Origin: Rubripirellula tenax
GTDB taxonomy: Bacteria > Planctomycetota > Planctomycetia > Pirellulales > Pirellulaceae
Length of the DNA: 64,000 nucleotides
Assembly (NCBI RefSeq): GCF_007860125.1
Contig: NZ_SJPW01000001.1
Coordinates: 496,001-560,000 of the forward strand
Direction: 5' to 3'
Positions 14,702-34,948 of this stretch are shown here, one piece after another. Position 1 is the stretch's first letter; every line of letters begins with the position of its first letter. The position numbers and the translations under genes are program-made. A model generated the notes under the pieces. It had not been told where the DNA came from and ran no database searches. It saw only the letters and a program-made list of their open reading frames with translations.

Positions 14702-14740
14702 GAGTAGGGGAAAAATAGGTGACAGGTTTCAGGTGACAGG
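14702..14740. repeat. Heptad-repeat element, copy a (single arm)
   Basis: GAGTAGG is followed, after an A-rich break, by AGGTGAC-AGGTTTC-AGGTGAC-AGG, a 7-bp-phased repeat with a conserved AGG and variable internal triplets. It fills the space between the GspG-like start codon (14690) and the stop codon of the Uma2 gene (14755). No matching opposite arm is present here. Confidence 0.85.
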
Positions 14741-14754
14741 GAAATCGTCGTCGA

Positions 14755-15294
14755 TTAGTCGGTGATCGTGTTGGGGAAGTTGGGGCAAAGCGTTGAGGTT
14801 GGTTTGGGGTCGTTGGGCAATGATTTTTCGTAGTAGCTCATGCGGCCGTCTTCGTCGCATGTCCAGCACTCTTGGGCGCCGGCGTCGAAGTACAAGCGAA
14901 ACTTGTTTTGGATTTCTTCATCACTGTTGGATGGGCTGAGAATCTCGACGCAAATTTCGGGTGACGTTTCCAATACGTTCTGATCGCCAAGGTCCGAAAA
15001 ACGTTCTGGCGACAACCAAACCACATCGACCACTTTCACTCCGTCGCCCGTGATCAACCCACACTCCGTCGCCGAATAGCCACGCATGGCCACTTCCAGT
15101 TGACTGGCAATCTTTGACTGACGGCGACTGTGAATGAATCGTGCCGGTGGTGTCATGACGATCTGTCCCCAAGCATTGGTTTCAATCCGTTGCCCCAGTC
15201 GGGCCAGATCGCGATCACGCACGACTTCATCCCATCGCCGGCGATGAAAATCCATCGTTTGCTCGCGACTGGGTAGGTTGATGATCAATTGCAT
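14755..15294 (-). CDS. Uma2-family (DUF820) restriction-endonuclease-fold protein, copy A
   Basis: 179 residues. The region TSPEICVEILSPSNS at about residues 110-124, followed by a Lys near 130 and AGAQECWTCDEDG, matches the Uma2/DUF820 core, in which a glutamate and lysine of a PD-(D/E)xK-like site precede an AGxxEYW-type motif. Uma2 proteins are abundant in cyanobacteria and planctomycetes and their role is not settled. The start MQLIINLPSRE is shared with the adjacent copy B, and the final 42 residues are identical to it. The ATG is five bases from a heptad repeat arm and has no evident Shine-Dalgarno. It interrupts the pilus locus between the GspG-like and PilC-like genes, and looks like accessory cargo. 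Confidence 0.85.
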   Translation of the reverse strand: MQLIINLPSREQTMDFHRRRWDEVVRDRDLARLGQRIETNAWGQIVMTPPARFIHSRRQSKIASQLEVAMRGYSATECGLITGDGVKVVDVVWLSPERFSDLGDQNVLETSPEICVEILSPSNSDEEIQNKFRLYFDAGAQECWTCDEDGRMSYYEKSLPNDPKPTSTLCPNFPNTITD

Positions 15295-15296
15295 GG

Positions 15297-15324
15297 GAGT
15301 AGGTAACAGGTTTCAGGTAACAGG
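15297..15324. repeat. Heptad-repeat element, copy b (single arm)
   Basis: GAGT-AGGTAAC-AGGTTTC-AGGTAAC-AGG begins immediately upstream of the Uma2 copy A start codon and ends 14 bases before the stop codon of copy B. Same orientation and phase as copy a. Confidence 0.88.
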
Positions 15325-15338
15325 AAAATGGTCGGTGA

Positions 15339-15878
15339 TTAGTCGGTGATCGTGTTGGGGAAGTTGGGGCAGAGCGTTGAAGTTGGTTTGGGGTCGTTGG
15401 GCAATGATTTTTCGTAGTAGCTCATGCGGCCGTCTTCGTCGCATGTCCAGCACTCTTGGGCACCAGCCTCGAAGTACAGGTTTCGTTTGTGTTGCATTTC
15501 CGCTTCCGTGTTGCTGGGGCTGATCACTTCGACGCAAATCTCGGGAGCTGTCTGGATCGTGACTCGGCCTCGGGCAAGTTGATACCGTTCATCCGAAAAC
15601 CAAGCCGCGTCTGGTACTTTGATTCCGTCCAGCGTTTCAAGCGGCACGTCCGTTCGGCCAGCCCCACCCAACAACTTCTCAATCAACGCCGCAATCCGAA
15701 ATGCGCGGTCGTTGTGAAAAAAAGTCGGTGGCGGATTCACAATCAATTGTCCAAACGAATTCGTTTCAAACTTCCCTTCCACCCCACTGAGCCTCGCGTC
15801 GGCAATCGCTCGCCCCCAACAGTCGCGAGCAAACGCAACGGTCTCTTCGCGACTGGGTAGGTTGATGATCAATTGCAT
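15339..15878 (-). CDS. Uma2-family (DUF820) restriction-endonuclease-fold protein, copy B
   Basis: 179 residues, the same length as copy A, with the same N-terminal 11 residues and an identical C-terminal 42 residues (from GAQECWTCDEDG onward). Residues 12-137 are clearly diverged. The Uma2 core TAPEICVEVISPSNT with a downstream Lys is present. The start at 15878 (MQLIINL) is chosen by homology with copy A. A longer open frame to 15971 is an artefact of the heptad repeat, which is open in several frames and would encode CHLSPVTYHLSP. The mosaic of identical ends and diverged middle suggests duplication followed by gene conversion, or recombination between modules. Confidence 0.85.
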   Translation of the reverse strand: MQLIINLPSREETVAFARDCWGRAIADARLSGVEGKFETNSFGQLIVNPPPTFFHNDRAFRIAALIEKLLGGAGRTDVPLETLDGIKVPDAAWFSDERYQLARGRVTIQTAPEICVEVISPSNTEAEMQHKRNLYFEAGAQECWTCDEDGRMSYYEKSLPNDPKPTSTLCPNFPNTITD

Positions 15879-15881
15879 GGG

Positions 15882-32718: not shown

Positions 32719-32750
32719 TTGGTTTTAGGGATTGGGTGTTAGGTATTAGG
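32719..32750. repeat. Heptad-repeat element, degenerate copy i
   Basis: TTTTAGG-GATTGGG-TGTTAGG-TATTAGG keeps the 7-bp phase but has T in place of the usual C before AGG. It lies between the rsmA start codon and the ribE stop. Confidence 0.65.
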
Positions 32751-33348
32751 AAAGATCTGTGTTTTGCGATAACGCTCGCTGGACGTATTTGGCCAACAGA
32801 TCGGTTTCCAGATTCACTCGGTCGCCAACTTTCCGGCCGCCCAGTGTGGTGACGGACAAAGTGTGAGGAATCAAGGCGACGGAAAACGAATCGTCCGCGA
32901 CGTCGACCACCGTCAAGCTGATGCCGTCGATCGCAATGCTGCCCTTGGATGCGACTTGGGACGCCAAGTGTTTCGGGATGCTGAACCGCAGGTTGGCCCA
33001 CGGCGGATCATCTTTTCGCTCGATCAATCGTCCGACGGCATCGATGTGGCCGGAAACGTAATGTCCGCCCATCCGATCGCCGACCGCGAGTGAGCGTTCC
33101 AAATTGACGTGGCTGCCGATGACCAATTCGCCCAAGTTCGTCCGCGACAACGTTTCTTCGCCGGCTTCGAAATCCAGTTTCGTTGCTTCGACACCCACAA
33201 CCGTCAAGCAACACCCATTGATACAGATGCTGGCCCCCATGGTCGCATCCTGGGCCACTAACCCGGCATCAACGGTAAAACGCTTGCCCGGGGATTGATC
33301 GACGACGTTGACGAGGGTGCCGAGAGTTTCGACGAGTCCGGTGAACAT
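32746..33348 (-). CDS. ribE: Riboflavin synthase alpha subunit
   Basis: 200 residues. The MFTGLVETLGTL start is the hallmark of the family, followed by two homologous lumazine-binding barrels (about 1-88 and 98-188), with CLTVV near residue 48, GHYVSGHIDAVG near 97 and SLTVV near 146. It dismutates two molecules of 6,7-dimethyl-8-ribityllumazine into riboflavin. The start codon is four bases from a heptad-repeat hairpin and lacks a clear Shine-Dalgarno. Other rib genes are not adjacent. Confidence 0.96.
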   Translation of the reverse strand: MFTGLVETLGTLVNVVDQSPGKRFTVDAGLVAQDATMGASICINGCCLTVVGVEATKLDFEAGEETLSRTNLGELVIGSHVNLERSLAVGDRMGGHYVSGHIDAVGRLIERKDDPPWANLRFSIPKHLASQVASKGSIAIDGISLTVVDVADDSFSVALIPHTLSVTTLGGRKVGDRVNLETDLLAKYVQRALSQNTDLS

Positions 33349-33352
33349 TGGC

Positions 33353-33432
33353 AGTAGGTTCTAGGTGACAGGTATCAGGTGACAGGAAATAAAAGTCCTG
33401 ATGCCTGTTACCTGACAACTGAAACCTATTCC
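33353..33432. repeat. Heptad-repeat element, copy j (compact hairpin)
   Basis: Left arm AGTAGGTTCTAGGTGACAGG plus TATCAGGTGACAGG, a loop of about 10 bases (AAATAAAAGT), then right arm CCTGATGCCTGTTACCTG plus ACAACTGAAACCTATTCCC. This is the cleanest example of the inverted, 7-bp-phased design. It lies between divergent ribE and eno, with its left arm four bases from the ribE start codon. Confidence 0.93.
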
Positions 33433-33523
33433 CGACGCCTAGCCAGTTTGGCAGCGATGCACCAAAATGCCAGCCCGGAACGAAACAGACCCTCCCAACT
33501 CTTAAGTTTTCACGAGACCTCCC

Positions 33524-34804
33524 ATGACTTTGATCGAAGCCATCCACGCCCGCCAAATCCTCGACAGCCGCGGAAACCCGACGATCGAATGCGAAGTTTT
33601 GCTTTCCGACGGATCTCACGGTCGCGCCGCCGTACCTAGCGGAGCCAGCACCGGGATGCACGAAGCGTGGGAACTCCGCGACGGTGACAAGTCCGTCTAC
33701 ATGGGCAAGGGCGTTCTGACGGCCGTCGACAACGTCAACGAAAAGATCGCCGAAGCACTCGAGGGCATGGACGCGACCGACCAAGCCGGCATCGACGCGG
33801 CGATGATCCAAATGGACGGCACCCCGAACAAAAAGAACCTGGGCGCCAACGCGATCCTGGCCGTTTCGCTGGCCACCGCCCACGCCGCTGCGTCCTGCAC
33901 CGGACAACCACTTTACCGCTACCTCGGCGGCGCCGGTGCTCGCATGTTGCCCGCACCGATGATGAACATCATCAACGGTGGCGAACACGCCGACAACAAC
34001 GTCGACGTGCAAGAGTTCATGGTGATGCCTTTGGGCTTCGAACGATTCAGCGACGCACTTCGCTGTGGCACCGAAATCTTTCATAACCTGAAGAAAGTTC
34101 TGACCGACAAGGGCTACAACACCGCGGTCGGCGACGAAGGCGGTTTCGCACCTGATTTGAAGAGCAACCAAGAAGCTCTCGACGTCATCATGACGGCGAT
34201 CGACAAGGCAGGTTACAAGGCCGGCGAACAAGTCTGGATCGCACTCGACGCGGCTTCGACCGAATTTTACGACAAAGATTCAAAGACCTACTCGATCGAC
34301 GGCAACAAGATGTCGGGCAGCGAGATGGTCGATTTCTTGGCCGGTTGGTGCGACAAGTATCCGATCTGCAGCATCGAAGACGGTTGCGACGAAGACGACT
34401 GGGACACCTGGAAGAAGTTGACCGACAAGATCGGCAAGAAGGTCCAGTTGGTCGGTGACGATTTGTTCGTCACCAATGTTGATCGCTTGCAACGCGGTAT
34501 CAACGAAGGCATTGCGAACAGCATCCTGATCAAGGTCAACCAAATCGGAACGCTGACCGAAACGATCGACGCCATCCAATTGGCTCATCGCAACAACTAC
34601 ACGTCGATCAGCAGTCACCGCAGCGGCGAAACCGAAGACTCGACCATCGCCGACTTGGCGGTTGCCCTTTCGACCGGCCAAATCAAAACCGGTTCGGCCA
34701 GCCGAAGTGACCGCATGGCAAAGTACAACCAACTACTTCGCATCGAAGAAATGCTGGGCGACACCGCACAATACGGTGGCCCAGTCTTCGCAGCAAAGTT
34801 GTAG
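33524..34804 (+). CDS. eno: Enolase (phosphopyruvate hydratase)
   Basis: 426 residues, full length. [20 protein letters not shown] opens the N-terminal domain, [17 protein letters not shown] carries the mobile catalytic loop, and the metal-binding and active-site segments include [33 protein letters not shown] and the signature [32 protein letters not shown] completes the C-terminal barrel. It interconverts 2-phosphoglycerate and phosphoenolpyruvate in glycolysis. The stop is followed within six bases by a heptad-repeat element. A long antisense open frame (33269-34231) is a shadow of this gene. Confidence 0.98.
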
Positions 34805-34809
34805 GAACA

Positions 34810-34948
34810 AGTAGGTAACAAGTAGGTAACAGGTAACAGCAGTCGATACAGCAGTCGATACAGCAGTCGATACAGCAGTGTGATAAGATTTCGGAGTGGC
34901 ACCTCGTGCCCAACTCGCGAAAACCTGTCACCTGAAACCTGTTACCTA
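34810..34948. repeat. Heptad-repeat element, copy k, with internal 12-bp tandem repeat
   Basis: The left arm (AAGTAGGTAACAAGTAGGTA then ACAGGTAACAG) begins six bases after the eno stop; the right arm (AAACCTGTCACCTGAAACCT then GTTACCTATG) ends 13 bases before the next start codon. Between them is ACAGCAGTCGAT repeated 3.7 times (34836-34879) and about 40 bases of unique sequence. Confidence 0.9.

Follow-up and report, generated by a model that had tools for sequence, protein, structure and literature searches.

The DNA examined here, a stretch of 64,000 nucleotides from Rubripirellula tenax that we call the window, raises the question of what the 7-base tandem repeats in its gene spacers are and how they came to lie there. 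An earlier note, made from the letters alone, had described them as an inverted-repeat family of heptads with a fixed AGG, and the family is real: the pattern AGGNNNCAGGNNNCAGG has 24 overlapping matches in the window compared with a mean of 0.01 per dinucleotide shuffle (100 shuffles), all of them within positions 14717–34947. The matches group into 12 arms of 3 to 10 AGG units each, and none of the 11 genes used contains any of these arms. A strict lag-7 scan detects only one window array at its threshold because the triplets within the units are variable. The AGG heptad itself stands, but the unit is better written CAGGTNN, with C before most inner AGGs and T before the outermost AGG in 33 of the 56 arms read in this genome. 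As degenerate, intergenic tandem arrays of 7-base units, the arms of the window and of this genome share the basic character of STRRs, STRR being the name of the intergenic heptamer repeats of cyanobacteria and Xanthomonas.

Heptad arms in the window and across the genome

The leftmost copy (14702–14740, + strand) is an arm without a gene, an outer GAGTAGG followed by TAGGTGACAGGTTTCAGGTGACAGG, lying between the start of an N_methyl pilin gene (14690) and the stop of a Uma2 gene (Uma2a, 14755–15294, − strand); the arm at 15297–15324 (+) is 6 nt from the Uma2a start codon. Between the start of a second Uma2 gene (Uma2b, 15339–15878, −, with its ATG at 15878) and the T2SSF stop lies an inverted pair with a short loop, in which a long left arm of 10 AGG units (15881–15950, +) faces a right arm (15964–15990, −) located 4 nt from that stop. 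The other short-loop pair lies between RibE and enolase (33353–33386, +, and 33397–33420, −). Folding, which the earlier note had proposed as a check, gives stable hairpins for both, with z about −6.9 on either strand for 15881–15990 and z of −6.8 (+ strand) and −5.5 (− strand) for the RibE–enolase pair. Two pairs are wide. One has arms of five units each at 17437–17471 (+, 6 nt from the T2SSF start) and 17907–17940 (−, 3 nt from the T2SSE stop), and the other occupies the PilT–T2SSE spacer (19662–19696, +, and 19779–19806, −). A degenerate left arm of GTAGGTAACAA units follows enolase (34808–34835, +), and a right arm precedes orf187 (34924–34950, −). Single, unpaired arms also occur in spacers, among them one in the PilT leader (20937–20975, +), where the upstream part of the spacer aligns by eye to that of the genome labelled G002.

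The outer edges of the arms had been placed within about 10 bases of start or stop codons. This is true of 8 of the 12 arms, whose outermost AGG is 3–7 nt from such a codon, but in the remaining four the distance is 13, 25, 26 or 110 nt. The note also had the element exactly replacing the spacer. The family does fill spacers, but native sequence seems, by eye, to be kept between the arms in some of them, and the element therefore does not always replace the entire spacer.

Across the whole genome, AGGNNNCAGGNNNCAGG has 81+83 matches, compared with 1+5 for the same pattern read backwards. At 20 further loci, 37 of 41 arms are intergenic and four fall within an ORF according to a crude ORF caller; a + arm is followed by a − arm at 14 of the 20 (tally by eye). 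We rejected the idea that the arms have a fixed inner end, since AAA follows the last AGG in only 17 of the 56. The sites are locally clustered, with 9 of the 17 on contig C1 inside the 20-kb interval of the earlier note, which bears the IVP gene described below (binomial 3e-13, for an interval that the note had chosen for its repeats).

Association of the arms with IVP genes

Between the wide-set arms at 17437–17471 and 17907–17940 (f and g of the earlier note) lies a gene that the note overlooked. This gene (17487–17852, −) encodes a four helix bundle protein, the little-understood S23 or 23S rRNA intervening sequence (IVS) protein, IVP (PF05635, E 1e-38; TIGR02436, E 5e-37; PDB 2gsc, E 2e-20), and it is the key to the nature of the family. 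A single-sequence structure prediction of IVP was poor (pLDDT 66.9) and was left unused.

We compared the flanks of 134 IVP loci in Pirellulales with 108 control flank pairs. The best tandem lag beside IVP is 7 or 14 at 111 of the 134 loci, in contrast to 13 of the 108 controls. Heptads are present on both flanks at 86 loci and in no control pair, and on either flank at 114 loci versus 9 controls; neither flank has heptads at the threshold used in 20 of the 134, and the right flank of L141, which belongs to the neither-flank or the one-sided loci, was assigned a wrong position at the end of a contig. Inverted similarity between the flanks exceeds direct similarity at 118/134 loci versus 33/108 controls. 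A period of 8 or 9 takes the place of 7 at a minority of IVP loci. Inward-reading arms have more G than C in 186 of 200 cases, with a median of 4.6 units per arm and commonest lengths of 4 and 5 units. In 76 of 84 codirectional spacers, IVP lies on the strand of both neighbours.

The association extends beyond Pirellulales. At IVP loci of other Planctomycetota orders, the best lag is 7 or 14 in 18/26 and both arms are present in 15/26. Among 18 plasmid IVP loci of other phyla, mostly cyanobacteria, the best lag is 7 or 14 in 14 and 8 in the other four, both arms are present in nine, and inverted similarity exceeds direct similarity in 16. The arms of the Anabaena sp. 90 plasmid IVP have the word AGGTGAC, identical to a heptad of the window. 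The family had been likened to cyanobacterial repeats in period alone, a restriction that falls, given that several cyanobacterial plasmid IVP genes are flanked by heptad arms that are inverted and built in the same way.

The Uma2 genes of the window are neighbours only. As cargo of the element, Uma2 was rejected: at 25 usable Uma2 loci elsewhere, no heptad arms and no flanks with a lag-7 array at threshold were found, and a best lag of 7 or 14 was seen at two, with low score. Uma2 adjoins T2SSF in both the window and genome G021.

Arm words and IVP kinship

The 7-base word, CAGGTNN in the window, differs among loci and tracks the IVP tree. The words of the two arms, one inverted, have at least 5 of 7 letters in common at 79 of the 86 two-armed IVP loci. 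Random pairings reach this in 361 of 2000 cases, and the 86 loci themselves in only 6 when both words are read in direct orientation; the remaining seven two-armed loci have fewer than five letters in common. Word similarity correlates with IVP identity across 84 loci (Mantel Spearman 0.44, reached by 0 of 999 permutations; 0.435 after regressing out GC difference), a correlation from which shared host ancestry is not fully removed.

The IVPs at the T2SSE–T2SSF spacer of genomes G000/G011 and G021 form one clade (support 100/97), yet their words differ. In G000 and G021, the PilT–T2SSE hairpins and those downstream of T2SSF match the word of the local IVP; of the three further spacers read near the G021 IVP, two have the word of that gene. 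The arm word may be rewritten in concert. In G011, the PilT–T2SSE spacer has TTAGGNN arms, a word absent from all six of its IVP loci, and in G021 an ATTTGTC-like hairpin occupies the T2SSE2–PilT spacer next to TTAGCNN hairpins; concerted rewriting would therefore be incomplete.

Presence and absence among relatives

Sites have been gained or lost between species with the flanking genes intact. The T2SSE–T2SSF spacer has the IVP element in G000, G011 and G021 and lacks it in 16 other genomes of the genus. In the PilT–T2SSE spacer, inverted heptads of other words are present in G011 and G021, and none were seen in G002 and G018. Comparison with 19 further genomes of the genus found no AGG heptads beside enolase in any of them. 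G013 has a one-sided lag-7 array in the T2SSE–T2SSF spacer and G019 has heptads downstream of T2SSF, in both cases with no IVP there. The earlier note had set two outcomes against its own reading, heptads at random positions including inside genes and an absence of gain and loss; neither was observed, the arms of the window lying outside the genes used and the sites varying between species. No target-site duplication was recognised when spacers were compared with those of relatives by eye, the native spacer being lost or unalignable. The one gene searched from a heptad-rich cluster of G011 (L409) had no match in G000, G002 or G018 at threshold, so that this cluster provides no empty site.

A proposed element and alternative explanations

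We think it probable that the heptads form the ends of a small mobile or self-spreading element with IVP, and that the arm-only hairpins are its non-autonomous copies. The full form would consist of an inward-reading, G-rich heptad arm, the IVP gene for an S23 four-helix protein, and an inverted heptad arm. It would sit in gene spacers, mostly in the same orientation as the operon around it, which would allow IVP to be expressed from read-through transcripts. Hairpins that have the same word but no gene, of which the window has several, would be non-autonomous derivatives or spread copies, and each 7-base word would be paired with an IVP lineage. Presumably the unit moves or copies itself. IVP, whose relative XCC0516 is a five-subunit ring, may recognise the repeated word with one unit per subunit (4 and 5 units being the commonest arm lengths); cutting and joining would fall to host enzymes. 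Counter-evidence comes from the lack of any encoded transposase chemistry of a known kind, from the IVP loci that have no heptads at threshold or have period 8 or 9, from the seven two-armed loci with unlike words, from the failure to recognise a target-site duplication, from arms that seem to bracket native sequence, which is unexpected from a single clean insertion, from words sometimes unmatched to a local IVP (G011, G021) and from heptads without IVP (G013, G019).

The heptads might instead be a host or polymerase product, arising as 7-base microsatellites in untranslated DNA undergo slippage and conversion, and IVP genes would simply settle in such spacers. Slippage at 7-base units is proposed for bacterial heptamers in the available portion of one study (PMC4692102), arrays as long as 15 and 23 AGG units exist (loci L388 and L406), and some spacers have heptads with no local IVP. 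Among tandem arrays in 1.26 Mb around T2SSE of 80 relatives, lag 7 is the commonest (51, followed by 40 for lag 14 and 24 for lag 15), with 0–1 arrays for lags 4, 5, 6, 8, 10 and 11. We nevertheless consider this origin unlikely. Slippage alone does not account for a second, inverted arm of the same word, for a genome in which different words each belong to their own IVP, or for an outermost unit unlike the others. A third possibility is that the host keeps the hairpins as functional RNA, to terminate or process transcripts or to insulate the genes of an operon from one another. This would fit the stable folds obtained for two of them (z −5.5 to −7.0), their location at start and stop codons, and the sense orientation of IVP within operons. 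However, mismatches between arms have no wobble-compatible bias (191 vs 210 for G·U preference, p 0.37), and selection on an RNA stem is therefore unsupported; positions 13000–36000 have no Rfam match, the hairpins are absent at the same spacers in most genus members compared, and one spacer has different words among relatives. We rate this role as quite improbable.

Very improbable, in our judgement, are REP/BIME-like palindromes mobilised by RAYT (Y1_Tnp) transposases, with GTAG in the outer GAGTAGG as the tag. GTAGG is indeed outermost in 19 of the 56 arms of this genome, which has seven Y1_Tnp matches, and GTAG repeats are reported from Planctomycetes in the accessible text of a survey (PMC3733652). 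In contrast to REP/RAYT systems, however, heptads in this genome do not flank Y1_Tnp transposase genes, with AGG heptads at 0/7 of these loci and flanking lag-7 arrays at threshold in 0/6 Y1_Tnp control loci; moreover, the two folded hairpins pair arm to arm, and a GTAG-containing word occurs in only 8 of the 86 two-armed IVP loci.

Returning to a mobile IVP element, it is quite possible that IVPs define a class of mobile elements that has gone unrecognised and occurs in several phyla. In this class a protein of ~120 residues, probably a ring, would read a tandem 7-base word and spread inverted arms of that word into gene spacers. If true, this class would explain cyanobacterial heptamers, Xanthomonas heptamers and 23S IVSs together. 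In the portions of the literature available, the heptamer repeats of cyanobacteria and Xanthomonas and the S23/IVP protein have so far been two separate unexplained puzzles, and no IVP–heptad link was found in the open-licence papers covered. With the link they become a single system open to testing, for which there are a candidate protein and site, and in which the existing word–protein pairs serve as a natural library. Should IVP read its word, it would rank as a repeat-reading protein of very small size in which many specificities have evolved.

Comparison with known systems

Similar to the window element, the 23S rRNA IVS has an IVP/S23 gene between terminal inverted repeats; it is termed a selfish element of unclear function and origin in the part of the source at hand (PMC4990558). 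A further trait of such IVSs is their excision by RNase III. The window element differs in lying in a protein-gene spacer of a T2SS operon rather than in 23S rRNA (consistent with the Rfam result above), in having 7-base tandem arrays as arms, and in having many arm-only copies. Intergenic heptamers of Xanthomonas and Nostoc (GGGAATC, GGGGATT) resemble those here in their 7-base tandem units, their location near ORF ends, where they have a fixed strand preference, and their inverted pairs, of which two Xanthomonas genomes have 70 (Xcc) and 75; in contrast to ours, they are described, in the available portion of that report, as generally not associated with mobile elements and with no link to IVP (PMC4692102).

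Like MITEs, the arm-only copies have terminal inverted repeats and no gene, and the heptad elements are short, intergenic and present in many copies; they differ in having no parent DDE/HUH transposase, and comparison by eye recognised no target duplication. IVP has weak similarity to the diversity-generating retroelement (DGR) protein Avd (27 bits, E 4e-6), but this score is below the NCBIfam Avd cut-off of 80 bits and the window element holds no gene but IVP between its arms. Lastly, the P6b stem of the Nostoc tRNA-Leu intron consists of one of two classes of 7-base repeat, one class having repeatedly been replaced by the other (PMC4476775). The arms of locus L119 in this genome are similar to class II (NNTGAGT), but the Nostoc repeats are intron-internal, and their description, as far as available, does not mention an IVP gene.

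Heptad arms and an enclosed IVP gene

The window (positions 496001-560000 on its contig, C1, in a genome of 7.99 Mb whose closest named relatives, by T2SSE protein, carry the labels Rubripirellula and Rhodopirellula) contains 24 matches to AGGNNNCAGGNNNCAGG against 0.01 expected, and genome-wide the pattern has 81+83 matches against 1+5 for its reversal. The window matches make up 12 arms, i.e., tandem arrays of 3 to 10 seven-base units, none of which lies within any of the 11 genes used, and in 8 of them a start or stop codon lies 3-7 nt from the outermost AGG. When 23 further loci of the same genome were added, the base before the outermost AGG was T in 33 of 56 arms and the base before most inner AGGs was C, making the outermost unit unlike the others. 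Single spacers with very long arrays, of 15 and 23 AGG units, were also seen (L388, L406).

One pair of arms, at 17441-17471 and 17907-17937 with five AGG units apiece, encloses a gene that the earlier note had missed. Its 121-residue product matches PF05635, the 23S rRNA-intervening sequence protein (hereafter IVP; E 1e-38), TIGR02436 four helix bundle protein, and the solved structure of XCC0516 (2gsc, E 2e-20), a Xanthomonas protein which PMC4990558 describes as a homopentamer of four-helix bundles. Across 131 IVPs, residues Q38, R41, S45, N49, E52, and E75 are 97-100% conserved. The genome has two additional IVP genes, one with inverted TGAGNNN heptads (L119) and one with inverted, purine-rich flanks showing no 7-base period at the threshold used (L120). 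Nine of the 17 sites on contig C1 fall inside 14702-34948, the 20-kb interval in which the repeats were originally noted and which houses the IVP gene, and this clustering suggests a local spread of heptad sites.

Association of IVP genes and inverted arms

PF05635 is present in 71 of 118 genomes of the order Pirellulales and in 9 of 22 genomes of the genus. We scored tandem lags of 3 to 15 in the 250-base flanks of 134 IVP loci, taking the best lag; these comprised the 32 loci L118-L149, with one or a few from each genome, another 22 from the genus, and 80 that we picked among the order matches listed, mainly in multi-copy genomes. Lag 7 came out best at 90 loci and lag 14 at 21, compared with 7 and 6, respectively, of 108 control flank pairs taken about 1 kb off from 3-kb loci. 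A lag-7 score of at least 9, our threshold for a heptad flank, was reached on both flanks at 86/134 loci versus 0/108 controls and on either flank at 114/134 versus 9/108, with L141, whose right flank was misplaced at a contig end, counted as being without that arm. Similarity between flanks was greater inverted than direct at 118/134 loci versus 33/108 controls, and inverted arms had at least 5 of 7 letters of their consensus word in common in 79 of the 86 two-armed loci, as opposed to 361/2000 random pairings and 6/86 direct comparisons. Read inward, the arms are G-rich (G > C in 186 of 200, G < C in 11) with a median length of 4.6 units. As for the negative controls, 25 of 30 Uma2 loci and 6 of the genome's own 7 Y1_Tnp loci were usable, and no lag-7 array reached threshold in either set; low-scoring best lags of 7 or 14 turned up in 2 of the former and 1 of the latter.

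The words vary among loci, even within single genomes: in the Pirellulales genome G100, each of the 7 loci examined (of 10 IVP loci) has a consensus word of its own, although two of these words are just 1-2 letters apart. Word similarity rises with IVP identity (Mantel Spearman 0.44, 84 loci; 0/999 permutations) and stays correlated at 0.435 once GC difference is regressed out; arm words follow IVP lineages. One clade (100/97) unites the IVPs of the source genome and its genus relatives G011 and G021, and the G021 arms are nevertheless TTAGCNN.

The IVP gene may depend on read-through transcription for its expression, which would predict what is seen in codirectional spacers, where it shares its strand with both neighbours in 76 of 84 (counted from 103 loci with two long neighbours, using a crude ORF caller). 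The arms match best in one register (0.868 versus 0.774 shifted, 85 loci), the choice of the best register itself favouring that value. Arm mismatches, however, show no wobble preference, which makes reading of the G-rich word, in DNA or in single strands, likelier than upkeep of an RNA stem. The IVP element encodes no known transposase chemistry, and no target duplication was recognised at heptad elements.

Gain and loss between species

Among the 19 genus genomes having a full-length T2SSF, an IVP element occupies the T2SSE-T2SSF spacer in the source genome, G011, and G021 (506, 522, and 767 bases). This spacer is 113-174 bases in the other 16 (269 with Ns in G017), with no IVP match in any and no lag-7 array in 15, G002 with its 97% identical T2SSF included; the spacer of G013 (L166) has a short one-sided array with a score of 14. 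Downstream of T2SSF, heptads occur in the source genome, in G021, and in G019 (L161), a genome with no IVP match. The heptads near T2SSF in G013 and G019 (L167, L166, and L161 region) use other words, and no IVP accompanies them at these positions.

Neighbouring spacers differ as well. The inverted arms between PilT and T2SSE are CAGGTNN in the source genome, TTAGGNN in G011, and TTAGCNN in G021, and no heptad arms are present there in G002 and G018. The T2SSE2-PilT spacer holds a hairpin with a further word in G021 and a single CAGGTNN arm in the source genome. AGG heptads surround enolase in the source genome only, among 20 compared. At least 4 of 13 fetched G011 heptad regions match fetched source-genome heptad loci by neighbouring genes, and at L386/L416, compared by eye, the source genome has a hairpin and G011 an unrelated spacer of similar length. 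One G011 gene cluster (L409) has heptads in several consecutive spacers; one gene searched from it had no match in the source genome, G002, or G018.

Other taxa and known repeats

In other Planctomycetota orders, the best lag was 7 or 14 in 18 of 26 usable IVP loci (of 28), and both arms were present in 15; the remaining loci include periods 8 and 9. Our plasmid sample took in 18 (16 from cyanobacteria and one each from Azospirillum and Gemmatirosa) of the 39 records that matched IVP and gave a best lag of 7 or 14 in 14 and of 8 in 4 (Picosynechococcus, Gemmatirosa, Leptolyngbya, and Tolypothrix), with two-sided lag-7 arrays in 9 and greater inverted than direct similarity in 16, by a small margin in several. 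Several Nostocales plasmid loci have a long arm on the 5-prime side only. In Anabaena sp. 90, AGGTGAC arms flank an IVP gene located between cas6 and cas4.

Cyanobacterial and Xanthomonas heptamer repeats go by the name STRRs. Intergenic heptamers, sometimes inverted and placed near ORF ends, are described for Xanthomonas and Nostoc in PMC4692102, and PMC4990558 treats the IVP gene as known from 23S IVSs; among open-licence papers, we found no report linking the two.

IVP genes were seen amid CRISPR-cas genes on three cyanobacterial plasmids (L341, L342, L346), twice between cas6 and cas4 and once between cas10 and cmr3; a figure legend in a CRISPR survey names the 23S rRNA IVP too (PMC10910872). 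A minority of IVP loci have a best period of 8 or 9, e.g., GGAGAT-rich 8-base units (L313, L317, L319, L322, L326, L327, L336, L337, L342, L350, L354, L357).

The window also holds two adjacent Uma2 genes (14755-15878) with near-identical start regions, both matching the PADLOC candidate family PDC-S03, and G021 has a Uma2 gene at the same operon position. Other repeats are a 142-base unit in 1.8 copies with 94% matches (23611-23869), a pure 12-base array, ACAGCAGTCGAT, between two arms downstream of enolase (34836-34879), and a short TGTTAC hexamer array (50857-50881).
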